NCBI GenBank assembly: GCA_017623115.1
Contig: JAGAPT010000052.1
Coordinates: 1-64,000, forward strand
Origin: Alistipes sp.
GTDB lineage: Bacteria; Bacteroidota; Bacteroidia; Bacteroidales; Rikenellaceae
Direction: 5' to 3'
Length of the DNA stretch: 64,000 bases
Every line of letters begins with the position of its first letter. The first letter of the stretch is position 1. Shown piece after piece: positions 11,113-48,563 of this stretch. The translations under genes and the position numbers were made by a program. The notes under the pieces were generated by a model, which searched no databases, was not told the DNA's origin, and worked only from the letters and a program-made list of their open reading frames with translations.

Positions 11113-12387
11113 ATGAAGAGATACTATACAAATGCGCAAATCTACCGAGACGGGCATTTCGAGACGGGCATGCTGGTCGAGGAATATGGTGTGTTGGTAG
11201 CGGCCGGGACTCCCTCGGAGGGAGATTGTGTGGTCGATTTGGGAGGACGGCATGTGGTCCCCGGATTGATTGATGTGCATGTCCATCTGCGTGAGCCGGG
11301 CTTTGGCTATAAGGAGACCATCGCTACTGGTACGGCTGCCGCTGCACACGGCGGATATACGACTGTCTGCTCGATGCCGAATCTCAATCCGGCACCCGAT
11401 ACGGCTGCGACCCTGGGCGAACAACTGGTGCTCATCGAGCGGGATGCTGTGGTGCATGTCGTGCCTTATGGCTGTATCACGATGGGACAGCGTGGCGGTG
11501 GCGAACGGGCCGATATGGCAGCCATGGCCGAGCATGTGGTGGGTTTCTCGGATGATGGCCGTGGTGTGCAAAACGATGAGGAGATGCGCTTGGCCATGCA
11601 GGAGGCTGCCCGCCTCGGCAAACCGATTGTGGCGCACTGCGAAGTCAACGAACTGCTCAAAGGGGGGTATATCCACGACGGTGACTACTGCCGCCGGCAT
11701 GGCCATCGCGGTATCTGCTCCGAGAGTGAGTGGGCGCAGGTGAAGCGCGACATCGAATTGGTGGAGCAGTGTGGTTGCCAATATCATGTGTGCCACGTCT
11801 CGACCAAGGAGAGTGTCGAATTGGTGCGTGAGGCCAAACGCAAGGGCCTTCCGGTGAGTTGCGAAACAGCTCCGCACTACCTGATTTTTACCGATGCCGA
11901 TTTGCAGGAGGATGGCCGCTGGAAGATGAATCCGCCGATTCGCAGTGCCGAGGACCGTGCTGCGCTGATTGCCGGCATTCAGGATGGTACGGTCGAGGTG
12001 ATTGCTACGGACCATGCACCGCACAGTGCCGAGGAGAAGTCGCGCGGCTTGGAGAAGAGTGCCATGGGTATCGTCGGGTTGGAGTGTGCTTTTGGTGCAC
12101 TTTATACCCATTTGGTCAAGCCGGGTGTGATTACACTCGAACGTCTCATCGACCTCATGGCAACCAACCCCGGACGATTGTTCGGCTTGGGCGGAAAGCT
12201 GACGCAGGGTGCAAAAGCTGATTTTACGGTACTCGACCTCGATGCCTGCTATACGGTGGAGCCGGAGCAGTTCCTCTCGAAGGGACGTGCCACGCCGTTT
12301 GCGGGTATGCCTTTGCAGGGACGCGCCGTGATGACGGTCGTGGAGGGTCGTGTGGCCTATCAGGATGAAATAATGAATACCAAATAG
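11113..12387 (+). CDS. pyrC: Dihydroorotase
   Basis: Closes carbamoyl-aspartate to dihydroorotate, third step of UMP synthesis. The 424-residue length and motifs fit class I (long type) dihydroorotases of the amidohydrolase fold. Visible are the metal pair HVHLREPG near residue 57, FSDDGRGVQN, HCE (about 178), HVS, and ATDHAPH with the catalytic Asp near 304. First structural gene after the attenuator; carA starts 5 bp after its stop. Confidence 0.93.
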   Translation: MKRYYTNAQIYRDGHFETGMLVEEYGVLVAAGTPSEGDCVVDLGGRHVVPGLIDVHVHLREPGFGYKETIATGTAAAAHGGYTTVCSMPNLNPAPDTAATLGEQLVLIERDAVVHVVPYGCITMGQRGGGERADMAAMAEHVVGFSDDGRGVQNDEEMRLAMQEAARLGKPIVAHCEVNELLKGGYIHDGDYCRRHGHRGICSESEWAQVKRDIELVEQCGCQYHVCHVSTKESVELVREAKRKGLPVSCETAPHYLIFTDADLQEDGRWKMNPPIRSAEDRAALIAGIQDGTVEVIATDHAPHSAEEKSRGLEKSAMGIVGLECAFGALYTHLVKPGVITLERLIDLMATNPGRLFGLGGKLTQGAKADFTVLDLDACYTVEPEQFLSKGRATPFAGMPLQGRAVMTVVEGRVAYQDEIMNTK

Positions 12388-12392
12388 ATACG

Positions 12393-13472
12393 ATGAAAGC
12401 ATATACGAAGAAACTGGTCTTGGAGAGTGGCCGTGAATTTTATGGGTACGGCTTTGGTGCCGACCGTGAGGCCATCAACGAAATTGTTTTCAATACGTCG
12501 GTCGTGGGCTATCAGGAGATTATGTCCGACCCGAGTTATACCGATCAGGCGGTGGTGATGACCTATCCGTTGATTGGTAACTACGGTATGGCCGACGAGG
12601 ATTATGAGACGAAGACCCCGACCCTCGGGGCGATGATTGTGCGTGAGTACAACGACTTGCCGTCGAACTTCCGCTATACGCGCACGCTGAACGAGGTGCT
12701 GGAGGAGTATAACATTCCGGCTATCGAGGGCATCGACACCCGTGCTTTGACCCGCATCATTCGTGACGAGGGTACGCAGAAGGCGATTTTGACCGATGCC
12801 TCGACGCCGACCGAGGAGGCGTTGGCACGACTCAACGCTTATGAGTTGCCGAAGGATTCGGTGGCGCGTGTCAGCTGCAAGAAACGCTGGATGTCGCGTG
12901 TGCCGAACCACACCTACGATGTGGTGGCCATCGACTGCGGTATTCGCAACAACATCATCCGTCAACTGAATAAGGTAGGTTGTAACGTGACGGTAGTGCC
13001 TTACAACGCTACGCTCGAGGAGGTGATGGCCTTCCATCCCGATGGCGTGGTGATTTCGAACGGGCCGGGTAATCCTGCCGACGTGGAGTCGGTGGCGGAG
13101 TTGGTCAAGCAGTTGCGTGGCCGCCTGCCTATTTTTGGTGTCGGCCTGGGTATGGAGCTCATAGCCTTGGCCTATGGCGCACAGGTCGATAAGATGAAGG
13201 TCGGCCATCGTGGTAGCAACCATCCGGTGATGAACCATGCTACGGGGTTGCTCGAGATTGCCGTACAGAATCATGGTTATGTGGTCAGCCCCGAGGCGTG
13301 CGGCATGTTGAAGGTGACGCATACGAATTTGCTCGATCGAACCATCGAAGGCGTGGAGTGCCGTTTCGACCGTGTCTTTGCCGTGCAGTTCGATCCGACG
13401 GCTGCCGAGGGCGAGTGCCACGATTTGTTCAAGAAGTTTGTTAAATTAATGGAGGAGGGAAGAGATGCCTAA
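12393..13472 (+). CDS. carA: Carbamoyl-phosphate synthase small chain with inactivated glutaminase
   Basis: By family, CarA splits glutamine and channels ammonia to CarB. The 359-residue chain has the normal N-terminal domain (1-135, ending GIDTRALTR) and class I amidotransferase fold ([29 protein letters not shown]). However, the nucleophile motif GICLGHQ reads GVGLGMEL: the catalytic Cys is Gly251 (codon GGC at 13143). The later HPEA motif reads DPTA: His is Asp334 and Glu is Thr336. All three catalytic residues are replaced, yet the frame is intact. It therefore probably acts only as a structural partner of an ammonia-using CarB, as in ammonia-dependent CPS I of animals. It overlaps carB by 8 bp. 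Confidence 0.93.
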
Positions 13473-16400
13473 GAGAGAAGATATCAAGAAAGTGATGGTC
13501 ATCGGCTCGGGCCCGATTGTGATTGGTCAGGCTGCCGAGTTCGACTATGCCGGTACGCAGGCCTGTCTGGCCCTGCGTGAGGAGGGTTACGAGGTGATTC
13601 TGGTGAACTCGAATCCGGCCACGATTATGACCGATACGAATATTGCCGATAAGGTCTATATGGAGCCGTTGACGCTCGAGTATGTGGCGAAGATTATCCG
13701 CTACGAGCGTCCCGATGCCATTGTGCCGGGTCTGGGTGGTCAGACCGGTCTGAACTTGGCTGTGCAGTTGGCCAAGAAGGGTATCTTGGAGGAGTGTCAG
13801 GTCGAGATTCTCGGCACGAGCTTCTCGTCGATTGAGCGTGCCGAGGACCGTGAGCTCTTCAAGGAGTTGTGTGAGTCGCTGGGCGAGCCGGTGCTCCCTT
13901 CGGAGGTGGCTACGACCATCGATGAGGGTGCCGAGATTGCAACCAAGATTGGCTATCCGGTGGTGTTGCGTCCCGCCTTTACGCTCGGTGGTACGGGTGG
14001 TGGTTTTGTCGATAACGAGCAGGAGTTGCGCGAGATGATGCGTAACGCATTGTTCCTCTCGCCCGTACATCAGGTGCTCATCGAGAAGAGTATCAAGGGC
14101 TATAAGGAGATTGAGTTCGAGGTGATGCGCGATGCGAAGGATACGGCCATCGCTATCTGTTCGATGGAGAATATCGATCCGGTGGGTATCCACACGGGCG
14201 ACTCGATGGTGGTTGCTCCGGCACAGACGCTGACGAACCGCGAGTTCCAGATGCTGCGCAACTCGGCCTTGAAGATTATCCGCGAGTTGAAGATCGAGGG
14301 TGGTTGCAACGTGCAGTTTGCACTCGACCCGCTCTCGTTCAAATATTACCTGATTGAGGTCAACCCGCGCGTGTCGCGCTCGTCGGCCTTGGCATCGAAG
14401 GCTTCGGGCTTCCCGATTGCCCGCGTAAGTGCCAAGATTGCCGTGGGTCTTACGCTCGATGAGATTCGCATCGCTACGACCCCCGCATCGTTCGAGCCGA
14501 CCATCGACTATGTCGTCACGAAGGTGGCTCGATTCCCCTTCGATAAGTTCTCCGATGCCTCGAATACGCTCGGCACGCAGATGAAGGCTACGGGTGAGGT
14601 GATGGCCATCGGTCGCACGATGGAGGAGTCGTTGTTGAAGGCCGTGCGCTCGCTCGAAACGGGTGTCTGCCACATCTATCACAAGAAATTCGATGATTGG
14701 AATCGTGAGCAGCTGCTCGACTACATCAAAGAGGGTACGGATGACCGCCTCTATGCCATTGCTCAGCTGATTCGCCTCGGCGTCGACCTGGTGATGATTT
14801 ACAACAACACGAAGATTGATATGTTCTTCCTCGAGAAGTTCAAGCACATTGTCGAAATGGAGTCGGTGGTGCGCGAGCATAAGGGAGATATCGAGGTGTT
14901 GCGTGATGCCAAGCGCATGGGCTTCGGTGATAAGTATATCGGTCAGTTGTGGGGCATGAGCGAGCACGATATGTATCGTTTGCGCAAGGAGCATGGCATC
15001 TTCCCCGTCTACAAGATGATTGATACCTGTGGCGGTGAGTTTGGAGCCTATGTGCCCTACTTCTACTCGTCGTATGAGGAGGAGAATGAGTCGCGCGTGA
15101 GCGACAAGGAGAAGATTGTGGTGCTCGGTTCGGGCCCGATTCGTATCGGTCAGGGTGTCGAGTTCGACTATTCGACCGTGCATGCCATCTGGTCGATTCG
15201 CAAGGCGGGTTATGAGGCCATCATCATCAATAACAACCCCGAGACGGTTTCGACCGACTATACGACCAGCGACAAACTCTACTTCGAGCCGCTGACGGTT
15301 GAGGATGTGATGAATGTCATCCACCTCGAGCAGCCGAAGGCAATTGTCGTATCGCTGGGTGGTCAGACGGCCATCAATCTGGCCGAGCCGTTGGCTGCAC
15401 TCGATGTGCCCATCATCGGTACGGATTGCGAGGCCATTCGCAATGCCGAGGACCGTGGTTGCTTCGAGCGTATCATGGAGGAGTTGCAGATTCCGCAGCC
15501 CGAGGCCGAGGCCGTTACCGATATCGAGGCCGGTGTGCGTGCCGCTGCCCGCATCGGCTATCCGGTACTGGTGCGTCCGAGCTATGTGCTGGGAGGTCGT
15601 GCCATGCAGATTGTCTCGAACGAGGAGCGTCTGCGCCACTACCTGCAGACGGCCGTCGAGGTGAATGTCGATTCGCCGGTGCTCGTAGACCGCTATATCA
15701 TGGGTAAGGAGTTGGAGGTCGATGCCATCTGCGATGGTAAGGATGTCTTCATCCCGGGTATCATGGAGCACATCGAGCGCACGGGTATCCACTCGGGTGA
15801 CTCGATTAGCGTCTATCCTACGTTCAGCGTGTCGCAGGAGGTGCGTAAGAAGATCATCGACTACACGGTGAAGTTGGGTCTCCGCATCGGTATCGTAGGT
15901 CTGTACAATATCCAGTTCATCGTCGATGAGCAGGGTGAGGTCTATGTCATCGAGGTCAACCCGCGTTCGTCGCGCACGGTACCCTTCCTCTCGAAGTCGA
16001 CCGGTGTGCCGATGGCGCACATCGCTACGCAGGTTATCCTTGGCCACTCACTCCGTGAGCAGGGCATCGAGGAGGTGTATGGCACGGATAAGAGCCGCTG
16101 GTATGTGAAGGCTCCGGCCTTCTCGTTTGCCAAGATTCGCGGCATGGACAGCTACCTCTCGCCCGAGATGAAGTCGACGGGTGAGGCAATCGGTTATGAC
16201 GATAAGTTGACACGTGCCCTCTATAAGGCCTTGCAGGCAACGGGTATGAATGTTTCGAATTACGGTACGATTCTGGTTTCGATTGCCGATGACGATAAGC
16301 CGAAGGCACTGCCGCTTATCCAGCGTTTCTACGACCTCGGTTTCAATATTGAGGCTACGGCCGGCACGGCCGAATATCTGCGTGAGCACGGTATCCGCAC

Positions 16401-16659: not shown

Positions 16660-17400
16660 GTGTATAAAAACGCCATCTATACCATTCGCGAGAACCGTCC
16701 GCTGACCGATGTGGTTTGGCGGATGGTCTTGGAGGGTGATACGCAGTGGATTACCCGCCCGGGACAGTTTGTGAATATCGCCTTGGAGGGGAAATATCTG
16801 CGCCGTCCGATTTCGGTGTCGGACTACGACGACCACACCATCACCCTCATCTATAAAATAGTAGGTGCGGGTACCCGCCAAATGGCCACGATGCAGCAGG
16901 GCGAGCAACTCGACCTGCTGACAGGGCTGGGCAACGGCTTCGATGTGTCGAATGCTGCTGCGCGAAACCTCTTGGTGGGTGGAGGTGTCGGTGTGCCGCC
17001 GCTCTACAATCTGGCCAAGAAACTCTTGGCCGAGGGGCGAGAGGTCGCCGTCGTGCTGGGCTTTAACACCGCTGCGGAGATTTTCTACGAGGAGGAGTTC
17101 CGTGCGTTGGGTTGCGAGGTGGTCGTAACGACCGTCGATGGCTCACACGGTGTGAAGGGCTTTGTGACGACCGCGCTTGCGGAGTGCAACATCGCCTTTG
17201 ACTACTTCTATGCTTGCGGTCCGCTGCCGATGCTCAAAGCACTCTATGACCATACGGAGCAGGATGGTGAATTGTCGTTCGAGGAGCGCATGGGCTGTGG
17301 CTTTGGAGCCTGCATGGGTTGCTCGTGTAAAACCAAATATGGGAATAAGCGTATCTGCAAGGAGGGCCCCGTATTGAAGAAAGGAGAGATTATATGGTAG
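16660..17400 (+). CDS. pyrK: Dihydroorotate dehydrogenase electron-transfer subunit
   Basis: FAD/[2Fe-2S] subunit that links class 1B PyrD to NAD+. The 246-residue protein has the FAD-binding stretch YLRRPISVSD, a nucleotide-binding GGGVGVPPLYNLA, and a C-terminal cluster site ERMGCGFGACMGCSC with Cys213, 218, 221 and 233. The start codon is GTG, 12 bp after carB; no ATG fits the conserved N-terminus. The stop overlaps pyrD by 7 bp, which suggests translational coupling of the two subunits. Confidence 0.92.
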   Translation: MYKNAIYTIRENRPLTDVVWRMVLEGDTQWITRPGQFVNIALEGKYLRRPISVSDYDDHTITLIYKIVGAGTRQMATMQQGEQLDLLTGLGNGFDVSNAAARNLLVGGGVGVPPLYNLAKKLLAEGREVAVVLGFNTAAEIFYEEEFRALGCEVVVTTVDGSHGVKGFVTTALAECNIAFDYFYACGPLPMLKALYDHTEQDGELSFEERMGCGFGACMGCSCKTKYGNKRICKEGPVLKKGEIIW

Positions 17401-18305
17401 ATACCTCGGTTGTGTTGAGTGGCTGGCGACTGGACAATCCGGTCATTCCGGCGAGTGGAACCTTTGGCTTCGGTAACGAGTTTAAGGATTTCTACGATAT
17501 TAACATCCTCGGAACCTTCTCGTTTAAGGGTACGACCAAGGAGCCGCGTTTTGGTAATCCGACTCCGCGCATTGCCGAGTGTACGGCCGGCATGATCAAT
17601 GCCGTCGGCCTGCAAAATCCGGGCATCGACGAGGTGATAGCCAAAGAGCTTCCGCGTATGAAGACGTACTTCAATAAGCCGGTGATTGCCAATATCTCGG
17701 GTTTCTCGATCGAGGAGTATGCCTATTGCTGCGAGCGGATTGACAAGGAGGAGCAGGTGGGTATCATCGAGGTCAACGTCTCGTGTCCCAATGTGCGTCA
17801 TGGAGGTATGTCGTTTGGCACGTCGCCCGAGGCCGCAGCCGAGGTGACGCGAGCCGTGAAGGCGGTGACGACGAAACCCGTCTACATCAAACTCTCACCC
17901 AATGTAACCGACATTGTCGCCATTGCCAAGGCGTGTGAAGCGGCCGGTGCCGATGGCCTGTGCCTGATTAATACGCTGCTCGGCATGCGTATCGATACGA
18001 TGCGTCGCCAGCCCGTTATCGCCAATACGATGGGTGGTTTCTCGGGTGCTGCTATCTTCCCGTTGGCCGTGCGTATGGTCTATCAGGTGGCGAAGGCCTG
18101 CTCGATCCCGGTCATCGGTTGCGGTGGCGTGCACACGGCTTCGGATGTCATCGAGATGATGATGGCCGGTGCTACGGCTGTAGAGGTGGGTGCTGCCAAT
18201 TTGGTCGATCCCTATGCCTCGAAGAAGATTGTTGAGGCTCTTCCCGGCGAGATGGAGCGTTTGGGAATCGAGCGTTTACAAGATATTATCGGAATTGTGA
18301 AATAA
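17394..18305 (+). CDS. pyrD: Dihydroorotate dehydrogenase, class 1B catalytic subunit
   Basis: Oxidises dihydroorotate to orotate with FMN and passes electrons to PyrK. The 303-residue TIM barrel has VIPASGTFGFG near the start, the active-site loop NVSCPNVRHGG with the catalytic Cys of class 1B enzymes, KLSPNVTD, and the phosphate-binding PVIGCGGVHTASD. Presence of PyrK and absence of a membrane anchor both mark the NAD-linked anaerobic type. pyrF follows 15 bp downstream. Confidence 0.94.
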   Translation: MVDTSVVLSGWRLDNPVIPASGTFGFGNEFKDFYDINILGTFSFKGTTKEPRFGNPTPRIAECTAGMINAVGLQNPGIDEVIAKELPRMKTYFNKPVIANISGFSIEEYAYCCERIDKEEQVGIIEVNVSCPNVRHGGMSFGTSPEAAAEVTRAVKAVTTKPVYIKLSPNVTDIVAIAKACEAAGADGLCLINTLLGMRIDTMRRQPVIANTMGGFSGAAIFPLAVRMVYQVAKACSIPVIGCGGVHTASDVIEMMMAGATAVEVGAANLVDPYASKKIVEALPGEMERLGIERLQDIIGIVK

Positions 18306-18320
18306 TCAAATAAAGACGCT

Positions 18321-19031
18321 ATGTTGAAGAGTGATGTAATCATTGCCTGCGACTTTAAGTCGGCCGAGGATACCTTCCGTTTCCTCGATTTGTTCAAGGA
18401 TGAGGAGCGTAAACCCTTCCTCAAAATCGGTATGGAACTCTACTATGCCGAGGGGCCTTCGATTGTGCGCGAGATTAAGCGTCGTGGCCACAAAATCTTT
18501 TTGGACCTGAAATTGCATGATATTCCCAATACGGTGAAGAAGGCGATGGCCGTGCTGTCACGTCTGGATGTCGATATGACCAATGTTCATGCCTCGGGTA
18601 CGATCGACATGATGAAGGCCGCCAAGGAGGGTCTGACGCGCGAGGACGGCTCGTGCCCGCTCCTGATTGCGGTTACGCAACTCACCTCGACGAGCGAGGA
18701 GCGCATGCAGCAGGAGCTGCTGATCGGCGCTTCGATCAACGATACGATCGTGAAGTATGCCGAGAACACCCGCGCTGCGGGTCTCGATGGCGTGGTTTGC
18801 TCGCCGTTGGAGGCCGGCATGGTCAAGGAGGCTTGCGGCAAGGAGTTCCTTACGATCACCCCGGGTGTGCGTTTTGCCGATGGCGAGGTGGGCGACCAGG
18901 TGCGTGTTACGACGCCGGCGCGTGCGCGTGAGATTGGCTCGGACTTCATTGTCGTGGGTCGTCCGATTACGGCAGCGGCCGATCCCGTGGCAGCCTATCG
19001 TCGCTGTGTAAAGGAGTTTTTAGGCGAATAA
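18321..19031 (+). CDS. pyrF: Orotidine-5'-phosphate decarboxylase
   Basis: Last step of UMP synthesis. The 236 residues have the length of the short class I enzymes. The catalytic Asp-Lys-Asp motif is [13 protein letters not shown] (about 61-73), preceded by LKIGMELYY with the substrate Lys. The C-terminal phosphate loop [14 protein letters not shown] is present. It sits between pyrD and the small glutaredoxin-like gene, 6 bp from the latter. Confidence 0.95.
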
Positions 19032-19324: not shown

Positions 19325-19957
19325 ATGGAGAAACTTATTGCAAAAGATTTGCTGTCGATTGGTGCAGTTTTTCTGCGTCCCGACGAGCCGTTTACCTGGG
19401 CCAGCGGTATCAAGAGCCCGATTTATTGCGACAACCGTCTGACGCTGACAGCCGTTGAGGTGCGTAAGCATGTCGAGGCCGGTTTGGCCGAGATTGTCCG
19501 CACGAAGTATCCCGAGGCCGAGGTGCTGATGGGTACCTCGACAGCCGGTATTGCCCATGCTGCCATCACGGCCACGATTCTCGATATGCCGATGGGGTAT
19601 GTGCGTTCGGGACAAAAGGACCATGGCCGTGGCAATCAGATTGAGGGTAAGCTGGAGAAGGGTCAGAAGGTGGTGGTCATCGAGGACCTGATTTCGACCG
19701 GTGGCTCGTGTATCGAGGTGGTCAACGCCCTGCGTGAGGCGGGAGCCGAGGTGCTGGGTGTGGCGTCGATTTTCACCTATGGCATGCAGAAGGGCCTGGA
19801 TCGCATGGCCGAGGCTAATGTCATCAACTACTCGCTCTCGAACCTCGATGCATTGGTGGAGGTTGCTGCCGAGGAGGGTTATATCAAGCCCGAGGATAAG
19901 GCTCGCCTGATACAGTTCCGCAACAACCCGTCGGACGAAAGCTGGATGAATAAATAA
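19325..19957 (+). CDS. pyrE: Orotate phosphoribosyltransferase
   Basis: Joins orotate to PRPP to give OMP, the substrate of PyrF. The 210-residue protein has the type I phosphoribosyltransferase PRPP site [13 protein letters not shown] near residues 117-129. The flexible-loop lysine region [15 protein letters not shown] and the N-terminal [16 protein letters not shown] are also clear. It is followed by a 159-bp spacer of tandem repeats and then pyrB. Confidence 0.95.
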
Positions 19958-20116: not shown

Positions 20117-21202
20117 ATGAGACACTTAATCGATCCAACCGACCTCTCGGTAGCCGAGATTCACGAAATCGTTGCGCTGGCCGAGGATATTATTGCCCAC
20201 CGCGAGAACTACCGCGAGGCATGCAAGGGAAAGAAACTTGCGACGCTCTTTTACGAGCCGTCGACCCGTACTCGTCTGAGTTTCACGGCCGCCATGCTGG
20301 AATTGGGTGGCCAGGTGATCGGTTTCTCGGATGCCAACTCTTCGTCGGTGTCGAAGGGTGAGACGGTAGCCGATACGGTGCGAGTGATTCGTTGCTTTGC
20401 CGACATCATCGCCATGCGCCACCTGAAGGAGGGTGCTCCGCTGGTGGCCTCGCAGTATGCCGGTATTCCGGTGATTAATGCCGGCGACGGCAGCCATGCC
20501 CACCCGACGCAGACCCTCACGGACCTGCTGACCATCAAACGTGAGAAGGGGCGTTTGAACCATCTGACGATAGGCTTCTGCGGTGATTTGAAGTTTGGTC
20601 GCACGGTGCACTCACTCATTAAGGCACTGTCGCGCGAGGAGGGTATCCGCATCTTCCTCATCTCGCCCGAGGAGTTGCGTCTGCCGAGCTATATGCTCAA
20701 GGAGATGCGCGTGAACTCGAAACTCGAATTCCACGAGGTGCGCACCATGGAGGAGGTGATGGGCGAGTTGGACATCCTCTATATGACACGTGTGCAGAAG
20801 GAGCGTTTCCTCGATGAGGAGGAGTTCGACCGTGTGAAGGACAGCTTCGTGCTCGACCCCGAGAAGTTGCAGGCGGCTCGTGAAGATATGATTATTCTGC
20901 ACCCGCTGCCGCGCGTGAATGAGATTACGCGTGCCGTGGATAACGATCCGCGTGCGGTCTACTTCCGTCAGGTCGAGAATGGTAAGTTTGTGCGTATGGC
21001 CCTTATCTACAGGTTGTTGCAGTGGGCCGACGAGAATAAACCGTTTGCGCATACACCGGTCTTCTCGGAGGAGTATGTGACGGGCGACTACACCTGCCCG
21101 AATCGTCGCTGCATCTCTGCTACGGAGGATGTAGACCCGATTTTCCGCTATGCCGAGGATGGTACGTTGCGATGTGCCTATTGCGAGGCCAAAGCCAAGT
21201 AA
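20117..21202 (+). CDS. pyrB: Aspartate carbamoyltransferase with C-terminal PyrI-like zinc ribbon
   Basis: Joins carbamoyl phosphate and aspartate. At 361 residues it is about 50 longer than a usual catalytic chain. Residues about 1-305 are a complete ATCase ([40 protein letters not shown]). The extension has four cysteines in the pattern C-x4-C-x20-C-x2-C (Cys327, 332, 353, 356), within [10 protein letters not shown] and LRCAYCEAK. This closely resembles the zinc domain of the E. coli regulatory chain PyrI (CPNSNCIS...CKYCEK), but the nucleotide-binding PyrI domain is absent and no separate pyrI is in the operon. Probably a catalytic chain stabilised by its own zinc domain and not controlled by CTP/ATP. 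Confidence 0.94.
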
Positions 21203-22038: not shown

Positions 22039-25000
22039 ATGAAGAACTTTCGCATTTTTGTTGAGAAGAAAGAGCGATTTCGCGTGGAGGCCGAGAGCCT
22101 GAAACGCGAGTTGAATCAGAATCTGAATTTGGCCATTCGGGAGTTGCGCCTCGTCTGTGTCTACGACCTCTTCGGCTTTACGGAGGAGCTGAAGGAGAAG
22201 TGCCGTTATGGGGTATTCGGTGAGGTGGTAACCGATACGGTGAGCGATGCGTGCGACTACGCCTCGCAACCGCATCTGGCGGTTGAGTTCCTGCCCGGTC
22301 AGTTTGATCAGCGTGCTGCATCGGCCGTCGATTGTGTGCGCTTGGTAGAACCTACGGCCGATGTGCGTATCCGCTCGTCGAAACTGCTCATCTTTGATGA
22401 GGGGGTCACCGAGGAGGCGATGGCCAAGATTCGCCACTACTACATCAATGCCGTGGAGTCGCGCGAGAAGAACCTCGAGGTGCTCTCCGAACAGGAACAG
22501 GCCGAGGTGCGTCCGGTGGAGGTACTGACGGGGCTGCGTGACCTGAAGGAGGAGGAGTTTGCTGCCTACTGCAAGCAGATGGGGTTGGCGATGAATGCCG
22601 ATGACCTGGGCGAGGTGGTGCGCTACTTCCGTGCCGAGGGTCGTGATCCGTTCGAGACCGAGTTGCGTATTCTGGATACCTATTGGAGCGACCACTGCCG
22701 TCACACGACCTTCACCACCGAGTTGGAGGGTATCACGGTCGAGGAGTCGTTCCTCAAAGAGGAGATTGAGGGCTCGCTGGCCCTCTACCTCAATATTCGT
22801 CGTGAGTTGGGGCGTGAGCACAAGCCGTTGTGCCTGATGGATATGGCGACGATTGGTGCGCGCGTGCTGCGCAAGCGTGGCCTGCTCGACGATATGGAGC
22901 AGAGCGAGGAGAACAACGCCTGCTCGATTTTCATCGACATCGAGGTGGATGGAGCACCCGAGCGTTGGCTGTTGCAGTTTAAGAATGAGACGCACAACCA
23001 CCCGACCGAAATCGAACCCTTTGGAGGTGCTTCGACTTGTCTGGGTGGTGCCATTCGTGACCCGCTGTCGGGGCGTAGTTATGTCTACCAGGCGATGCGC
23101 GTAACGGGTGCAGGGGACATCTACCAGAAGGTGGAGGATACGCTCCCCGGTAAGTTGCCGCAGAGCATCATCTCGAAGAAGGCTGCTGCCGGTTATTCGA
23201 GTTATGGCAACCAGATTGGTTTGGCGACGACCCATGTGCGTGAGGTCTACCACGAGGGGTATGTGGCTAAACGTCTGGAGGTTGGTGCCGTGGTCGGTGC
23301 CGTGAAGGCCGAGCATGTGCGCCGTGAGCGACCCGTAGCGGGCGATGTGGTCATCTACCTGGGTGGTCGCACGGGCCGTGACGGTATCGGCGGCGCTACG
23401 GGTTCGTCGAAAGAGCATGATGAGAAGTCGCTCGAGACGTGTGGTTCGGAGGTGCAGAAGGGTAATGCTCCCGAGGAGCGCAAGCTGGAGCGTCTGTTCC
23501 GTCGTCCGGAGGTGACGAAATTGATTAAGAAGTCGAATGACTTTGGTGCCGGAGGTGTCAGCGTCGCCATTGGTGAGCTGACGGATGGTCTGGATATCTA
23601 TCTGGATCGTGTGCCGACGAAATATAGCGGTCTGAACTCGACCGAGTTGGCCATCAGCGAATCGCAGGAGCGTATGTCGGTGGTCATCGAACAGCAAGAT
23701 ATGGAGGCCTTCATGCAGTATTGCCGCGAGGAGAATATCGAGGCGGTGCATGTGGCCGATGTGACCGATACGGCGCGTATGCGCATGTACAACCAGGGTC
23801 GCCTGGTGGCCGATTTGAGCCGTGAGTTCATCGATTCGGCCGGTGCAAAGCACTATGCCGAGGCGCAGATTGGTGCGGTCGAGGAGTGCAACCCCTTCGC
23901 TCGCGAGATGGAGGGTGCGACCGTTGAGGAGCGATTCAAGGCCAATCTTGCCGATTGGAATGTTACCTCGCAGAAGGGCTTGATTGAGATGTTCGACTCG
24001 ACCATCGGTCGCTCGACGGTGCTCATGCCCTTTGGTGGTAAGACGCAACGCAGCGAGACGCAGGTCTCGGTGCAGAAACTGCCTGTGGATGGCTATACGG
24101 ATGCGGCGAGCATCATGGCCTATGGCTATAACCCGAATCTGGCTTCGTGGAGCCCCTATCATGGTGCCGCATATGCCGTGGTAGAGGCTGCGACAAAGGT
24201 AGTGGCTGCCGGTGCCCGCTATGAGAAGATGCGCTACTCGTATCAAGAGTATTTCGAGCGTATGACCAAGCAGCCGACCTCGTGGGGTAAGCCTCTCTCG
24301 GCGTTGCTTGGTGCCTTGAAGATGCAGGTGGAGCTGGGTTTGCCGTCGATTGGTGGCAAGGACTCGATGTCGGGTACGTTCCAGGATATCAACGTGCCGC
24401 CGATGCTGATGGCCTTCGGTATCACGATGGTGGATGCCAAACAGGTCATCTCGACCGATTTGAAGGGGGCAGGACATCACCTCTACCTCATTCGTCATAC
24501 CCCCGATGGTTGCTACATGCCCGACACAGAGCAGTTGAAGCGCAACTTCAACTTCGTAAGCGATGCTATCGAGCAGGGTAAGGTGCTGGCCGGTTGGTCG
24601 GTCGGCATGGGTGGTGTTGCCGAGGCATTGGCCAAGATGGCCTTTGGTAATCAGGTGGGTGTCGAGGTGACGATGCCTGAAGCCTCGCTCTACGACTACG
24701 CTTATGGTTCGATTGTGGTGGAGACGAACGAGCCACTCGATTATGCGGCTGCCGAACTCATCGGTCGCACGATTGCCGAGGAGGTGATCGTGGTCGAGGG
24801 GGTACGTATGCCGTTGGAGGAGCTCTTCGAGGCTAACCGTGCCAAGTTTGCTGCGATTTATCCCGATAAAGGCGAGAATAGAGCCGAGGTGATGACCTCG
24901 GAGCCCGAGGCATGCACGATTACCTACCCGGGCGAGGCGGTGGAGCATCCTGTTGCTTACCTGCCTGTCTTCCCCGGTACGAACTGCGACTACGATACGG

Positions 25001-25746
25001 CCAAAGCCTTCCGTCGTGCCGGTGCCGAGGTGCGTTCGAGTGTGCTGTGTAACCTCGAAGGCGATGACATCCTGCGCTCGATTGAGGAGATGTGCGCACA
25101 TATCCGCGAGGCACATATCTTTGTCTTGAGTGGCGGTTTCTCGGCCGGTGATGAGCCTGATGGTTCGGCGAAACTGATTGTCAATGTCCTGAATAATGAG
25201 GCAGTACGTCAAGAGATTCACGCGCTGCTCGATCGTGGTGGCCTGATTCTGGGTATCTGCAACGGCTTCCAGGCTTTGGTGAAGTCGGGCCTGCTGCCCT
25301 ATGGCCGCTTGGGACTGGTGACGGCCGAGTCGCCGACGTTGTTCCGCAACGATATCAACCGCCACATCTCACAGATGGTGACGACCCGCATCGCTACGAC
25401 CCGTTCGCCGTGGCTCTCGTCGTTCACGCTGGGCGAGGAGCATACGATTGCCGTCAGCCACGGTGAGGGTAAGTTTGTGGTGAGCGAACAGTTGGCCAAG
25501 GAGCTCTTCGAGCGCGGTCAGGTCGCGTTCCAATATGTGGACGAGCAGGGTCAGCCGACGGCAGAGGCTCCGTTCAACCCGAATGGTGCGTCGTATGCCA
25601 TCGAGGGTATCATCTCGCCCGACGGACAGATTTTGGGTAAGATGGGCCACACGGAGCGTTACGAGGAGAACCTCTTCAAGAACATCGCAGGCGAGAAACG
25701 CCAGCCGTTGTTTGAAAATGCCGTGAACTATTTTCGTAAGAAATAA
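22039..25746 (+). CDS. purL: Phosphoribosylformylglycinamidine synthase
   Basis: Converts FGAR to FGAM with glutamine and ATP. It is the long single-chain type (1235 residues): N-terminal PurS-like part (1-150), linker, two AIRS-like halves (ETHNHPTEIEPFGGA near 315; GGKDSMSGTF near 775), and a C-terminal class I glutaminase (about 970-1235). The glutaminase keeps its Cys in ILGICNGFQAL and its His in AVSHGEGKF, so unlike CarA in the neighbouring operon it should use glutamine. It starts 26 bp after purE. Confidence 0.96.
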   Translation: MKNFRIFVEKKERFRVEAESLKRELNQNLNLAIRELRLVCVYDLFGFTEELKEKCRYGVFGEVVTDTVSDACDYASQPHLAVEFLPGQFDQRAASAVDCVRLVEPTADVRIRSSKLLIFDEGVTEEAMAKIRHYYINAVESREKNLEVLSEQEQAEVRPVEVLTGLRDLKEEEFAAYCKQMGLAMNADDLGEVVRYFRAEGRDPFETELRILDTYWSDHCRHTTFTTELEGITVEESFLKEEIEGSLALYLNIRRELGREHKPLCLMDMATIGARVLRKRGLLDDMEQSEENNACSIFIDIEVDGAPERWLLQFKNETHNHPTEIEPFGGASTCLGGAIRDPLSGRSYVYQAMRVTGAGDIYQKVEDTLPGKLPQSIISKKAAAGYSSYGNQIGLATTHVREVYHEGYVAKRLEVGAVVGAVKAEHVRRERPVAGDVVIYLGGRTGRDGIGGATGSSKEHDEKSLETCGSEVQKGNAPEERKLERLFRRPEVTKLIKKSNDFGAGGVSVAIGELTDGLDIYLDRVPTKYSGLNSTELAISESQERMSVVIEQQDMEAFMQYCREENIEAVHVADVTDTARMRMYNQGRLVADLSREFIDSAGAKHYAEAQIGAVEECNPFAREMEGATVEERFKANLADWNVTSQKGLIEMFDSTIGRSTVLMPFGGKTQRSETQVSVQKLPVDGYTDAASIMAYGYNPNLASWSPYHGAAYAVVEAATKVVAAGARYEKMRYSYQEYFERMTKQPTSWGKPLSALLGALKMQVELGLPSIGGKDSMSGTFQDINVPPMLMAFGITMVDAKQVISTDLKGAGHHLYLIRHTPDGCYMPDTEQLKRNFNFVSDAIEQGKVLAGWSVGMGGVAEALAKMAFGNQVGVEVTMPEASLYDYAYGSIVVETNEPLDYAAAELIGRTIAEEVIVVEGVRMPLEELFEANRAKFAAIYPDKGENRAEVMTSEPEACTITYPGEAVEHPVAYLPVFPGTNCDYDTAKAFRRAGAEVRSSVLCNLEGDDILRSIEEMCAHIREAHIFVLSGGFSAGDEPDGSAKLIVNVLNNEAVRQEIHALLDRGGLILGICNGFQALVKSGLLPYGRLGLVTAESPTLFRNDINRHISQMVTTRIATTRSPWLSSFTLGEEHTIAVSHGEGKFVVSEQLAKELFERGQVAFQYVDEQGQPTAEAPFNPNGASYAIEGIISPDGQILGKMGHTERYEENLFKNIAGEKRQPLFENAVNYFRKK

Positions 25747-26492: not shown

Positions 26493-26521
26493 GGTTGGAA
26501 AGGTTTAAGGAGCAGAAAACA

Positions 26522-27928
26522 ATGAAGGAGCGTAAGATACAAGATGAGTGTGGCGTGTTCGGCATCTATGGTGTGGAGCATGCAGCTTCGCTGACCTATT
26601 ATGGGTTACATGCCCTGCAACACCGCGGTCAGGAGGGATGCGGTATCATCAGCGTTGATGAGGAGGGTGCGTTCCACCGCATCAAAGGAAAAGGATTGGT
26701 AACCGAGGTCTTCAAGGGGGATGAATTGTCGGCGATGAGAGGAAATATGGCCATTGGCCACGTGCTCTATACGGCAGCTGAAGGCAATCGCCTCGAGAAT
26801 GTGCAACCGCTGATGTTTCACCATAAGTCGGGCGACTTTGCCATTGCCAACAATGGTTGTTTGGTCAATGCCGAGGAGCTCCGTAGCTATCTGGAGAATC
26901 GGGGCAGTCTCTTCCAATCGACCTCGGATAGTGAGATTCTGGCTCACCTGATTAAGAAGGAGCGCAGTGCTTCACGGCCGCGTATTCACACCATCATCGA
27001 TGCCTTGAATATGATGGAGGGAGCCTTTACCTTCATGGTGATGACCTCGCGTCGTATCTATGCCTGCCGTGATAAGCATGGCCTGCATCCGTTGGCTATC
27101 GGCCGTCTGGGCGAGGGGTATGTCATTGCGAGTGAAACGTGTGCTTTCGATACGTTGGGTGCCGAATATATTCGTGATGTGGAGCCCGGCGAGGTGGTTA
27201 CAATCGACCACCACGGCATCCGTTCGAATCTCTATTCGCAATTCAAACACTACAACATGTGCTCGATGGAGTACATCTATCTGGCACGCCCCGATAGCGA
27301 TATCGAGGGGTGCAACGTACATGCTTATCGCAAGGAGTCGGGTAAGCTGCTCTTCAAGGAGGCTCCGGCCGAGGCGGATATTGTAGTCGGCGTTCCCGAC
27401 TCGAGCCTCAGTGCTGCGATGGGTTACGCCGAGGCGAGTGGTCTGCCGTATGAGATGGGTCTGATCAAGAATAAATACATCGGTCGTACCTTCATCCAGC
27501 CGACCCAGGCCCTGCGTGAGAAGGGTGTGCGCATGAAACTGTCGGCCGTTAGAACCATCGTGAAGGGAAAGCGTGTGGTGCTGGTCGACGACTCGATTGT
27601 GCGTGGTACGACCTCGCGTCGTATCGTCACGATGCTCAAAGAGGCGGGTGCCACGGAGGTGCATGTTCGCATCGCATCGCCCCCGATGACCGAGCCCTGT
27701 TTCTATGGTGTCGATACGACAAGCTACGACGAACTGATTTCGGCTCGTCTGTCGGTACCTGAGGTGCAGGAGGCGATAGGTGCCGATTCGCTGGCCTTCC
27801 TCTCGGAGGAGTCGCTCTATGTGGCCGGTCGTCGCGAGGAGTTGTGCACGGCCTGCTTTACGGGACGCTACCCGACGGCTCTCTATCACAACAGTGCAAT
27901 GGTGAAGAAATGTAAATGTAAAAAATAA
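26522..27928 (+). CDS. purF: Amidophosphoribosyltransferase
   Basis: First committed step of purine synthesis: PRPP plus glutamine to phosphoribosylamine. From the ATG at 26522 the chain begins MKERKIQDE and then Cys-GVFGIYG, so a nine-residue propeptide must be removed to free the N-terminal nucleophile Cys10, as in B. subtilis-type PurF. A TTG 27 bp upstream is a poorer start. The glutaminase domain (HRGQEGCG, NNGCLVN) covers about 10-235. The PRPP site VVLVDDSIVRGTTSRRIV lies near 360. C-terminal cysteines (CTACFTGRYP, CKCK) could hold an Fe-S cluster as in the Bacillus enzyme. Confidence 0.95.
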   Translation: MKERKIQDECGVFGIYGVEHAASLTYYGLHALQHRGQEGCGIISVDEEGAFHRIKGKGLVTEVFKGDELSAMRGNMAIGHVLYTAAEGNRLENVQPLMFHHKSGDFAIANNGCLVNAEELRSYLENRGSLFQSTSDSEILAHLIKKERSASRPRIHTIIDALNMMEGAFTFMVMTSRRIYACRDKHGLHPLAIGRLGEGYVIASETCAFDTLGAEYIRDVEPGEVVTIDHHGIRSNLYSQFKHYNMCSMEYIYLARPDSDIEGCNVHAYRKESGKLLFKEAPAEADIVVGVPDSSLSAAMGYAEASGLPYEMGLIKNKYIGRTFIQPTQALREKGVRMKLSAVRTIVKGKRVVLVDDSIVRGTTSRRIVTMLKEAGATEVHVRIASPPMTEPCFYGVDTTSYDELISARLSVPEVQEAIGADSLAFLSEESLYVAGRREELCTACFTGRYPTALYHNSAMVKKCKCKK

Positions 27929-44442: not shown

Positions 44443-45798
44443 CTATACCAAACCTTGTGCCAACATGGCATTGGCGACCTTCATAAAGCCTCCGATGTTG
44501 GCTCCCACCACATAATTGATGTAACCATCCTCCTGACGGCCGTAGCGTACGCAAACCTCGTGGATGTTCTTCATAATCGAATGCAACTTCGCATCGACCT
44601 CTTCGGGAGACCATGTCAGGCGCATCGAGTTCTGGGTCATCTCCAGTCCCGAGGTGGCTACACCACCGGCATTCGAAGCCTTGCCCGGTGCGTAGAGCAG
44701 TTTGTTCTCCTGGAAGATGCGGATGGCATCGGGGGTCGAGGGCATGTTGGCACCCTCGGCAACGCAGATGCAGCCATTGTCCACGAGCATCTGTGCCTCC
44801 TCGCCATTGAGCTCATTCTGTGTGGCGCAAGGCATGGCAATGTCGCACTGCTCGCCCCACGGACGTTTGCCGGCATGGTAGACGGCGTTGGGATATTGCT
44901 CGACATACTCCTTGATACGGCCACGGTAGATGTTTTTGAGTTCCATGACATACTCCCACTTCTCGGCATCGATGCCATCGGGATCGTAGATGTAACCCGA
45001 CGAGTCGGAGAGCGTTACGACCTTGGCACCCAGTTCGGTAGCCTTCTTGCAGGCGTATTGGGCCACGTTACCCGAGCCCGAGATGCAGACCGTCTTTCCC
45101 TCGAACGACTCTCCGCGCGTGGCGAGCATCTCTTGGGCGAAGTAGCAGGCACCGAAACCGGTTGCCTCGGGACGAAGCGGCGAGCCACCCCAGTCACGCC
45201 CTTTACCTGTGAGTGTGCCGGTAAACTCGTCGCGCAGACGCTTGTATTGGCCGAACATGAAGCCCACCTCGCGGCCACCGACACCGATATCTCCGGCCGG
45301 TACATCCGTATCTTGGCCAATGTGCTTTTGCAACTCGGTCATGAACGATTGGCAGAATTTCATCACCTCGTTATCTGATTTTCCCTTGGGGTTGAAGTCC
45401 GAGCCACCCTTGCCACCACCCATCGGGAGCGTGGTAAGCGAGTTCTTGAAGGTTTGCTCGAAAGCCAGGAACTTCAAAATGGAGAGGTTTACCGAGGGGT
45501 GGAAACGAATGCCGCCCTTGTAGGGGCCGATGGCACTGTTCATCTGTACACGGTAACCACGATTGATTTCAATCTCACCCTTGTCGTTGAGCCAGGGCAC
45601 ACGGAAGATGATGACACGTTCGGGCTCGGCGATGCGCTCCAGAATCTTCATCTTCTGCAACACCGGGCTGGCGACAATATGTGGTGCCAACGATTCGGCT
45701 ACCTCGCGTACAGCTTGGTGAAATTCGGGCTCGTTGGGATTCTTCGTGATGAGTTTGGCCATAAACTCCTCGACATACTGTTTTGCTTGTTCGTTCAT
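44443..45798 (-). CDS. gdhA: Glutamate dehydrogenase
   Basis: Interconverts 2-oxoglutarate plus ammonia and glutamate. 451 residues, the length of hexameric bacterial enzymes. Motifs: GPYKGGIRFHPSVN, the catalytic Lys in LPMGGGKGGSDFNPKGKS, DVPAGDIGVGGREVGFM, and the dinucleotide fold VCISGSGNVAQYA. The preference for NADP or NAD is not certain. It is the ammonia-fixing enzyme in this window, relevant to the ammonia-using CarAB proposed upstream. Confidence 0.95.
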   Translation of the reverse strand: MNEQAKQYVEEFMAKLITKNPNEPEFHQAVREVAESLAPHIVASPVLQKMKILERIAEPERVIIFRVPWLNDKGEIEINRGYRVQMNSAIGPYKGGIRFHPSVNLSILKFLAFEQTFKNSLTTLPMGGGKGGSDFNPKGKSDNEVMKFCQSFMTELQKHIGQDTDVPAGDIGVGGREVGFMFGQYKRLRDEFTGTLTGKGRDWGGSPLRPEATGFGACYFAQEMLATRGESFEGKTVCISGSGNVAQYACKKATELGAKVVTLSDSSGYIYDPDGIDAEKWEYVMELKNIYRGRIKEYVEQYPNAVYHAGKRPWGEQCDIAMPCATQNELNGEEAQMLVDNGCICVAEGANMPSTPDAIRIFQENKLLYAPGKASNAGGVATSGLEMTQNSMRLTWSPEEVDAKLHSIMKNIHEVCVRYGRQEDGYINYVVGANIGGFMKVANAMLAQGLV

Positions 45799-46631: not shown

Positions 46632-48563
46632 TTATTGAATTTTATCGAGTTCTTTGAGCCAGATACGAGCCGAGGCATCCGAGGGCATGCGCCAGTCGCC
46701 ACGTGGCGAGAGCGATACGAGCCCCACCTTCGGGCCATCGGGCATCGCTGAGCGTTTGAATTGTTGCGAGAAGAATCGACGGAAGAAGACACGCAGCCAG
46801 CCGAGAATCGTCTGACGGTCATAAGCCCCCTCGAAGGCCAATTCGGCTACATGCAACAACTTGCTTGGGCTGTAACCCGAATTGATGAAGTGGTAGAGGA
46901 AGAAGTCGTGTAACTCGTAAGGGCCGACCAAGTCTTCGGTTTTCTGGGCAATTTCTCCCGCATCATCGGTGGGAAGTAGTTCGGGGCTGACAGGGGTAGC
47001 CACTACATCGAACAGGATCTCGCGGATGCGGGCATCTTCGGCATAGTGTGAAGCGGCCCACTCGACCAACTTGCGGACCAATGTCTTGGGTATCGAGCCA
47101 TTGATGCCGTACATCGACATTTGGTCGCCATTGTAGGTTGCCCAGCCCAAGGCCAATTCACTCAAATCGCCTGTACCGATGACCAGTCCGTTCTCCTTGT
47201 TGGCCACATCCATCAAAATCTGGGTGCGCTCACGTGCCTGCGAATTCTCATAGGCTGCCGAGCGGTCTTCCGAACTGATGCCGATGTCGCGGAAGTGCTG
47301 TTCGCAAGCCTCCCGAATCGGAATTTCATGAATCGTAACACCCAGATGCTCCATCAGCTCCAAGGCGTTGCGATAGGTGCGATCGGTTGTTCCGAAGCCC
47401 GGCATCGTGATGCCGAGAATACCGGCACGATCCAATCCTAATTTGTCGAAGGTGCGTACCACAGCCAACAGCGCAAGCGTCGAGTCCAAACCACCCGAGA
47501 TGCCGAGAATGACGCGCTTGCAACCGGTATGTTTCAGACGCTTGGCCAAACCGTGCGATTGAATCTCAAGCACCTCACGATAGAGCTCCTCGCGACGGGT
47601 ATTGTGCTCGGGCAGGAAGGGCAGCGGATTGAATGTGCGATCGAGATGCCCCGTGTGCAACGGCTCGGGAATCTCCATTTCGATGACTGTGTTCTCGGTG
47701 CCCGACTCGTTGATGCGGAACGAGGTGTTGCGCTGGCGTTCGAAGTTGAGCAGCTCGATGTCTACATCGGCCACGATGAGTTTCTCCTCCAGCGAGAAAC
47801 GGTCCGTTTCCGCCAACAGACGCCCGTTTTCGGCGATGAAGGCTTTACCGGCAAAGACCAGGTCGGTCGACGACTCGCCAAATCCGGCCGAGGCATACAC
47901 GTAAGCCGAGAGGGTGCGGGCCGATTGCTGGGTCACCAATTGGCGCAGGTAGGCGTGCTTGCCAACCGCCTCGGGCGAGGCCGAGAGGTTGAAGATGACG
48001 CGTGCACCATCCAACGCCAACTGCGACGAGGGAGGTTGTGGTACCCAGAGATCCTCACAAATCTCAATGCCGAATTCCACACCATTGACCTCGAAGGTGA
48101 GGTCGATACCGAAGTCGGCGGTCTGTCCGGCTACGTCAATCTGCTCCTCGGTGATGCCCGAGCCTGACGTGAAGACACGATTCTCGTAGAACTCCGAGTA
48201 GTCCGGAATATAACTCTTCGGTACGACACCCATTACCTTGCCTTGCGAGAAGACTACGGCGCAGTTGTAAATGGCCGAGCCGTGGCGCAAGGGGGCTCCG
48301 ACAATCAAAACAATAGGCAGACGGCGAGTCTTGCGCAACAATTCGCTCAAGGCCTCATCGGCTGCATCGAGCAGCGTTGGTTGCAATAGCAGGTCGCCAC
48401 ACGTATAGGCCGTAACGGCCAACTCGGGGAAGGCGACAATCTCGACACCGCGACGTACGGCCTCTTCGGTGAGTGCAAGGATGTGCTCGACGTTGAAATC
48501 GCAATCGGCAACCTGCACGTGGGGCACGGCGGCCGCCACCTTCAAAAAACCAAATTTATCCAT
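46632..48563 (-). CDS. nadE: Glutamine-dependent NAD+ synthetase
   Basis: Amidates nicotinate adenine dinucleotide to NAD+. 643 residues in the two-domain form. The N-terminal nitrilase-type glutaminase (about 1-290) keeps its Glu in FPELAVTAYTCGD, Lys in MGVVPKSYIP and Cys in GIEICEDLWVP. The C-terminal synthetase domain has the P-loop ILGISGGLDSTLALL. Unlike CarA, the glutaminase is intact. Downstream of pepT by 12 bp. Confidence 0.95.
   Translation of the reverse strand: MDKFGFLKVAAAVPHVQVADCDFNVEHILALTEEAVRRGVEIVAFPELAVTAYTCGDLLLQPTLLDAADEALSELLRKTRRLPIVLIVGAPLRHGSAIYNCAVVFSQGKVMGVVPKSYIPDYSEFYENRVFTSGSGITEEQIDVAGQTADFGIDLTFEVNGVEFGIEICEDLWVPQPPSSQLALDGARVIFNLSASPEAVGKHAYLRQLVTQQSARTLSAYVYASAGFGESSTDLVFAGKAFIAENGRLLAETDRFSLEEKLIVADVDIELLNFERQRNTSFRINESGTENTVIEMEIPEPLHTGHLDRTFNPLPFLPEHNTRREELYREVLEIQSHGLAKRLKHTGCKRVILGISGGLDSTLALLAVVRTFDKLGLDRAGILGITMPGFGTTDRTYRNALELMEHLGVTIHEIPIREACEQHFRDIGISSEDRSAAYENSQARERTQILMDVANKENGLVIGTGDLSELALGWATYNGDQMSMYGINGSIPKTLVRKLVEWAASHYAEDARIREILFDVVATPVSPELLPTDDAGEIAQKTEDLVGPYELHDFFLYHFINSGYSPSKLLHVAELAFEGAYDRQTILGWLRVFFRRFFSQQFKRSAMPDGPKVGLVSLSPRGDWRMPSDASARIWLKELDKIQ

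Follow-up and report, generated by a model that had tools for sequence, protein, structure and literature searches.

What does a carbamoyl-phosphate synthase (CPS) small subunit do once the catalytic residues of its glutaminase are gone? This question is raised by carA in a 64,000-nucleotide stretch of DNA from Alistipes sp. (contig JAGAPT010000052.1 of assembly GCA_017623115.1; hereafter the window). The first-pass annotation had described the gene as an intact frame in an operon whose product has lost the entire catalytic triad, and both descriptions hold. The frame is unbroken, encodes 359 aa and lies between pyrC and carB, with the gene order pyrC-carA-carB followed by pyrK, pyrD, pyrF, pyrE and pyrB, the pyr names having been assigned by eye (Table 1). 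In the alignment to E. coli CarA, GGC (Gly251), GAT (13392-13394, Asp334) and ACG (13398-13400, Thr336) stand at the positions of C269, H353 and E355, and Glu255 replaces Q273, presumably a glutamine contact. Both the small-chain domain (PF00988, 163.9 bits) and the class I amidotransferase domain (PF00117, 138.8 bits) are present, carB adjoins carA with the two frames overlapping by 8 bases, and the protein scores 390.7 bits against a cut-off of 307.35 in TIGR01368, the 'glutamine-hydrolysing' CarA model, with no Cys-His-Glu triad. That name can thus be wrong for a CarA above the curated cut-off. A side observation in the same operon concerns PyrB, whose C-terminal tail carries four cysteines and by eye resembles the zinc domain of the PyrI regulatory chain, as if fused.

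Table 1. Coordinates of the features discussed, in the window unless another contig is given.
Feature	Position	Strand	Basis
pyrC, dihydroorotase, upstream neighbour of carA	11113..12387	+	named by eye from sequence
carA, CPS small subunit lacking the Cys-His-Glu triad, 359 aa	12393..13472	+	ORF and profile matches
GGC, Gly251, nucleophile site (E. coli C269)	13143..13145	+	codon read and alignment to E. coli K-12 CarA
GAG, Glu255 at E. coli Q273	13155..13157	+	codon read and alignment
GAT CCG ACG, Asp334-Pro-Thr336 at E. coli H353-P-E355	13392..13400	+	codon read and alignment
Loop following the former HPE motif, shortened; E. coli P360-H361 without aligned counterpart	13401..13418	+	alignment
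carB, large subunit, intact frame, 1060 aa	13465..16647	+	ORF and alignment
CarB Gly523-Gly524, E. coli 533-534	15031..15036	+	alignment
pyrK	16660..17400	+	named by eye
pyrD	17394..18305	+	named by eye
pyrF	18321..19031	+	named by eye
pyrE	19325..19957	+	named by eye
pyrB, aspartate carbamoyltransferase, carbamoyl phosphate user	20117..21202	+	named by eye
purL, glutaminase motifs intact (contrast)	22039..25746	+	motifs read
purF, Leu in place of E. coli Arg73 (mature numbering), Cys retained	26495..27928	+	alignment
gdhA, glutamate dehydrogenase	44443..45798	-	named by eye
nadE, nitrilase-type glutaminase domain with intact motifs (contrast)	46632..48563	-	by eye
Short GuaA (GMP synthase), 442 aa, glutaminase part shortened, nucleophile motif missing	G000:C4 (window genome; L153, L181), about 148799-150120		frame and alignment

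The genome that carries the window (2.19 Mb in 60 contigs, 99% complete, 3% contamination) gave one CarA match at E 1e-5, and the PF00117 profile has three matches in it, namely CarA, PyrG and GuaA; the second carA with Cys-His-Glu for which a search had been advised is thus not found, and CarA is single. Relatives were taken from a draw of 151 genomes of the genus, in which CarA was found at E 1e-30 in 136 and read in 70 of these (30 loci and 40 stretches, one of the latter a second copy). The comparison across relatives, likewise advised by the first-pass annotation, showed that the three changes are common to the window genome and nine related genomes, that is, to 10/10 genomes seen of what we call clade 1. 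All ten have Gly at the Cys site, His is replaced by Asp or Glu, and Glu by Thr, Ala or Ser. An assembly error was considered as the source of the triad loss and ruled out, since the changes occur together in all ten genomes at 76-86% protein identity to the window CarA. The eight named members (L002-L009) are metagenome genomes whose record titles give goat rectum or cecum, water-buffalo rectum or cecum and water-deer cecum, three titles naming no site. Elsewhere in the genus the Cys site holds Asp, Ser, Asn or Gly, the Asp mostly going with Gln in place of His and Asp in place of Glu, and four Clostridia rows (L040, L041, L055 and L076) have Asp or Gly there; three of these four come, by their record titles, from goat or water-buffalo cecum or colon. 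Five genomes (G148, G071, G116, G049 and G073) carry a second CarA that is 37-38% identical to the window CarA, and the one in G148 has a normal triad and stands beside a Gly-type CarA in the same genome.

The CarA alignment comprises 125 rows apart from E. coli, including two pairs of identical rows (L027/L107 and L031/L118), of which 86 have Cys-His-Glu and 39 lack the Cys. On a tree of 124 rows, built by a quick method without bootstrap after removal of the triad columns and with L076 and L142 excluded, there are seven changes between Cys and non-Cys, six of them forced by branches with SH-aLRT of at least 95, and they fall in the window genus and in Clostridia. With Cys taken as ancestral, these changes are losses. 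The window clade forms a group of nine rows with support 100.

If the small subunit no longer supplied ammonia from glutamine, the large subunit might be expected to have been altered as well: E. coli CPS binds ammonia weakly, so that a change of affinity would be expected in an ammonia-dependent enzyme. We compared with E. coli 29 CarB positions that belong to the nucleotide sites or the gates: 24 are identical, with C232, A251 and A314 of the gate all kept, and the remaining five (208, 210, 754, 756 and 787) differ identically in the intact relative L011. At 533-534 the window CarB has Gly-Gly, where 59 of 62 intact relatives have Ala-Ser. Set aside from that count is L010, the intact-triad sister of the window clade, whose CarB already has Gly-Gly at 533-534 together with Phe317; E. 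coli CarB, a glutamine user, has Ala-Ala at 533-534 and Phe at 317. Gly-Gly may accordingly have preceded the triad loss, or may be compatible with glutamine use.

Eight lineages with a triad-less CarA were compared with 13 intact control lineages over 630 CarB columns. Position 534 changed in 7/8 against 2/13 lineages, 253 in 6/8 against 1/13, 258 and 266 in 4/8 against 0/13, and 317, 344, 394 and 533 in 3/8 against 0/13; 253 and 317 lie near gate residues in the sequence. The p values of these eight sites range from 0.002 to 0.04 and none survives correction over the 630 columns. An excess of convergent sites was also considered and set aside: nine columns shared by at least three lineages are extreme under plain independence, but the intact controls clump too. 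Measured against 1287 subsets of controls, a reference set that includes L107 (the copy of L027 omitted from the per-site test), the triad-less set has 18 columns with at least three lineages (control mean 9.6, maximum 16) and nine with at least four (mean 4.1, maximum 8), its highest single column reaches 7 against 8 in controls, and its total changes amount to 149 against a control mean of 117. We regard the convergent CarB sites as suggestive, a lead only.

The loss is not confined to CarA, because GuaA, PyrG and PurF are damaged too, and this joint loss across several glutamine enzymes is the more surprising part of the result. The synthase parts of CPS, GMP synthase, PurF and CTP synthase accept free ammonia; GlmS is not known to use it. 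We read these enzymes in 30 genomes of the genus that were chosen, not drawn at random (26 with a CarA lacking Cys, four intact; drafts 83-99% complete), so that related genomes cluster and the counts that follow are non-independent trials. In the window-genome GuaA, the PF00117 match is limited to positions 1-76 of 190. The short form lacks a nucleophile motif of the GVCYGAQ type, and in 24/24 short forms the stretch that runs from the N-terminal LDLGS motif as far as the SGGVDS loop measures 139 residues, versus 212-213 in the eight full ones measured. Among the 30 genomes GuaA was short in 20 and full in nine, and none was found in one. Truncation of the resident gene was ruled out by identities in the ATP-PPase part, which are 89-98% between the window genome and the other short forms of the genus and 91-92% to short forms of two other families, compared with 48-52% to full GuaA of the genus; the pattern resembles replacement by transfer.

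A survey of 393 genomes of the order, in which GuaA was found at E 1e-60 in 371, extends this picture. Of 23 genomes picked for weak GuaA E-values, four had the short type (G433, G282, G434 and G493, all outside the genus, with an ATP-PPase part 93-95% identical to the nearest genus member) and G341 had a form without the glutaminase domain; the remainder comprised 12 full frames, three fragments, one match below the cut-off (G255) and two genomes without GuaA. The short GuaA seems to have passed from one family to another. None of these five genomes gave a CarA match; nor did G151 and G531 with full GuaA, or G373 and G497 with no GuaA match, so that the absence of CarA (9/30 chosen order genomes in all) is not specific to short GuaA. 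Among the 21 order genomes in which CarA was found, the Cys was present in 19/19 read (G363 and G276 stand outside the count, and the reading of His and Glu leaves out G165, G266 and G441), and the family controls G172, G175 and G412 have a CarA with Cys.

The first-pass annotation had taken the glutaminases of PurL, PurF and NadE in the window to be normal. For PurL (motifs GICNGFQ and GHTER) and NadE (motifs read by eye) this was borne out, but PurF, which keeps its Cys, has Leu at the residue aligned to E. coli Arg73. The same replacement occurs in 10 of the 30 chosen genomes (nine of the window clade and G140); four have a PurF without Cys, five have only a paralogue 29-31% identical, of the divergent MSGFFG type found in the genus, and 11 are normal. 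PyrG (TIGR00337) gave no match at E 1e-40 in 10/30 genomes (G008, G027, G020, G034, G024, G100, G001, G149, G030 and G046; completeness is 91-98% for eight and 83-85% for the other two). In the others, three PyrG proteins lack the Cys (in one of them, from G014, a stop interrupts the matched frame), five have a changed glutamine site at F353, R470 or H515, which we take to be glutamine-site residues, and 12 are normal; the window genome itself has a changed glutamine site. PurL shows both motifs in 23 of 24 loci beside PurF, the 24th being seen in its tail only, and is absent beside PurF from 6/30 loci. GlmS (TIGR01135, E 1e-40) was found in eight of the 30 genomes, with MCGIVGY in 8/8, and was not found at this threshold in 22, including G062 and G142 with intact CarA, a pattern that would fit a reversed NagB route. 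In the window genome PurL, NadE and GlmS all look intact.

These lesions go together. PurF is damaged or not found in 19/20 genomes with short GuaA versus 0/9 with full GuaA, and PyrG in 18/20 versus 0/9. The CarA tree, although not a species phylogeny, places the genomes with short GuaA in three separate clades, and the kind of PurF lesion differs from clade to clade. The lesions are not strictly tied, as exceptions show: in clade 2 (five genomes tested, with Asp for Cys, Gly in G040) PurF and PyrG are normal in 5/5 and GuaA is full in 4/5, none being found in G039; G136 combines a triad-less CarA and short GuaA with normal PurF and PyrG; and G104 keeps a normal PyrG.

We read the window CarA, with a probability of roughly 85%, as a retired glutaminase kept as a structural partner of CarB in a predicted ammonia-dependent CPS, one part of a wider drift of the lineage. 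The pattern of substitution bears directly on this. Median dN/dS in clade 1 is 0.112 for the CarA N-domain and 0.238 for the glutaminase domain (36 pairs), against 0.118 and 0.136 in intact Alistipes (45 pairs); CarA without its triad is still under purifying selection. Median identity within clade 1 is 94.3% for CarB and 78.3% for CarA, and in the intact set 93.2% and 89.0%, so that the CarA/CarB difference ratio is 3.81 versus 1.62. Taken together, dN/dS and divergence suggest that CarA seems to be retained for something besides glutamine hydrolysis. The raised dN/dS of the glutaminase domain, as well as the nine order genomes without a CarA match, could also be explained if pyrimidine salvage had made the whole CPS dispensable and the open carA frame were a passing relic of a decaying gene. 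We consider this very improbable, given the constraint on the CarA N-domain and on CarB, the open and adjacent pyr genes and the same state in all ten clade genomes seen.

The residues around the former active site speak to two other explanations. Positions 47, 273 and 311, to which we ascribe glutamine-site roles, and 359-361, which we take to form a wall of the tunnel, have partly gone with the triad: S47 is kept in 86/86 intact rows versus 18/39 rows without Cys, N311 in 86/86 versus 30/39 and P360 in 86/86 versus 10/39, Gly or Ala at 293 occurs in 85/86 versus 21/39 (Ser, Cys or Val in 18), and clades 1 and 2 have a shorter 359-361 loop. The oxyanion-loop glycines (E. coli 241 and 243), on the other hand, are kept in 39/39 rows without Cys, and the window genome has one glutamine synthetase match (PF00120, in a 779-aa frame). 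Both would suit a CPS that still used glutamine through a glutaminase supplied in trans by another protein via the old tunnel. The shortened loop argues against such an arrangement, as do the PF00117 matches, which include no further candidate in the genome, and we give it scarcely any weight. The other explanation would refine our reading of CarA as a structural partner, not replace it: the emptied pocket may have been rebuilt as an ammonium-capture port, with an acidic residue (Asp or Glu) in place of the Cys or the His drawing in NH4+. At least one of positions 269, 353 and 355 is acidic in 39/39 rows without Cys, and wherever the acid at 355 was lost, position 269 or 353 carries one (L076 ends before 353). 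These acids may mark an ammonium site or mere charge balance; Lys202, which we take to lie near the pocket, may merely want a charge partner. As the pattern amounts to only three to four independent events, and lineages that keep E355 gain no acid, we hold a capture port to be rather unlikely.

Under the structural-partner reading, CarA would stay as a subunit for CarB with no glutaminase role, free ammonia would enter CarB from the solvent instead of being released from glutamine, and the carbamoyl phosphate made by CarB would feed the pyrimidine operon. The expectation of an ammonia-dependent CPS convergent with animal CPS I, voiced when the locus was first read, is the best-supported interpretation, given the single CarA, its uniform state in clade 1, the repeated losses, purifying selection, the conserved CarB and the additional losses at the glutamine site and tunnel. 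Where ammonia is plentiful, CarAB, GMP synthase, PurF and CTP synthase could lose or swap out their glutaminases, PurL, NadE and GlmS meanwhile keeping theirs. The GOGAT large-subunit domain (PF00310) gave no match in the window genome, 12 of 14 controls being positive, and the simplest reading of the lesions, this result and gdhA would be a cell bathed in ammonia; a connection with gdhA and an ammonia-rich gut, as first proposed, is plausible. More broadly, we lean slightly towards the view that the lineage repeatedly abandoned glutamine as the nitrogen donor of nucleotide synthesis, in three clades of the CarA tree, owing to a supply of free ammonia in the gut. The four enzymes differ in their route of loss: point loss of the triad in CarA, replacement of GuaA by a glutaminase-deficient form moving between families, loss of Arg73, of the Cys or of the gene in PurF, and loss of the glutamine site or of the gene in PyrG.

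Glutamine amidotransferases are textbook cases of channelled ammonia, and natural, repeated losses in several of them offer ready comparisons, which show, as single engineered mutants cannot, which residues go first and how the synthase changes. Such lineages also allow testing whether free ammonia alone carries nucleotide synthesis in gut bacteria. Ammonia-only CPS is already known in animals. E. coli CarAB shares with the window CPS its two subunits, its domains and the CarB gate residues but has the glutaminase triad. Counterparts of E. coli CarAB without a working glutaminase were reportedly engineered by Rubino in 1986 and 1987, whereas the window state is natural.

Among the titles and abstract openings of the open-licence PubMed Central literature, we recognised no natural bacterial CarA without the triad. 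A review of carbamoyl phosphate sources assigns bacterial CPS to the glutamine-using CPS II class and presents a minimal CPS of the gut archaeon Methanobrevibacter smithii that consists of synthetase domains only (PMC6022934); no glutaminase partner is described for it there, whereas the window CPS keeps a partner that is inactive by sequence. Frog CPS I and Alcolapia CPS III use ammonia through lost glutamine-binding residues, and the CPS of bullfrog, Litoria and Alcolapia keeps the triad (PMC7657897), in contrast to the window CarA with its missing Cys. In human CPS1, Ser294 stands in for the catalytic Cys, and the old tunnel is blocked by Gln318, the residue at the G293 site (PMC4655335). 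On the best reading, the window CPS would be a bacterial counterpart of animal CPS I made of two subunits: in both, a glutaminase-like domain is kept, the catalytic Cys is replaced and the old tunnel is altered at the G293 site (PMC4655335). Animal CPS I, however, is a single fused chain, activated by N-acetylglutamate and serving ureagenesis, whereas the window enzyme is encoded by two genes in a bacterial pyrimidine operon and has all three triad residues replaced.
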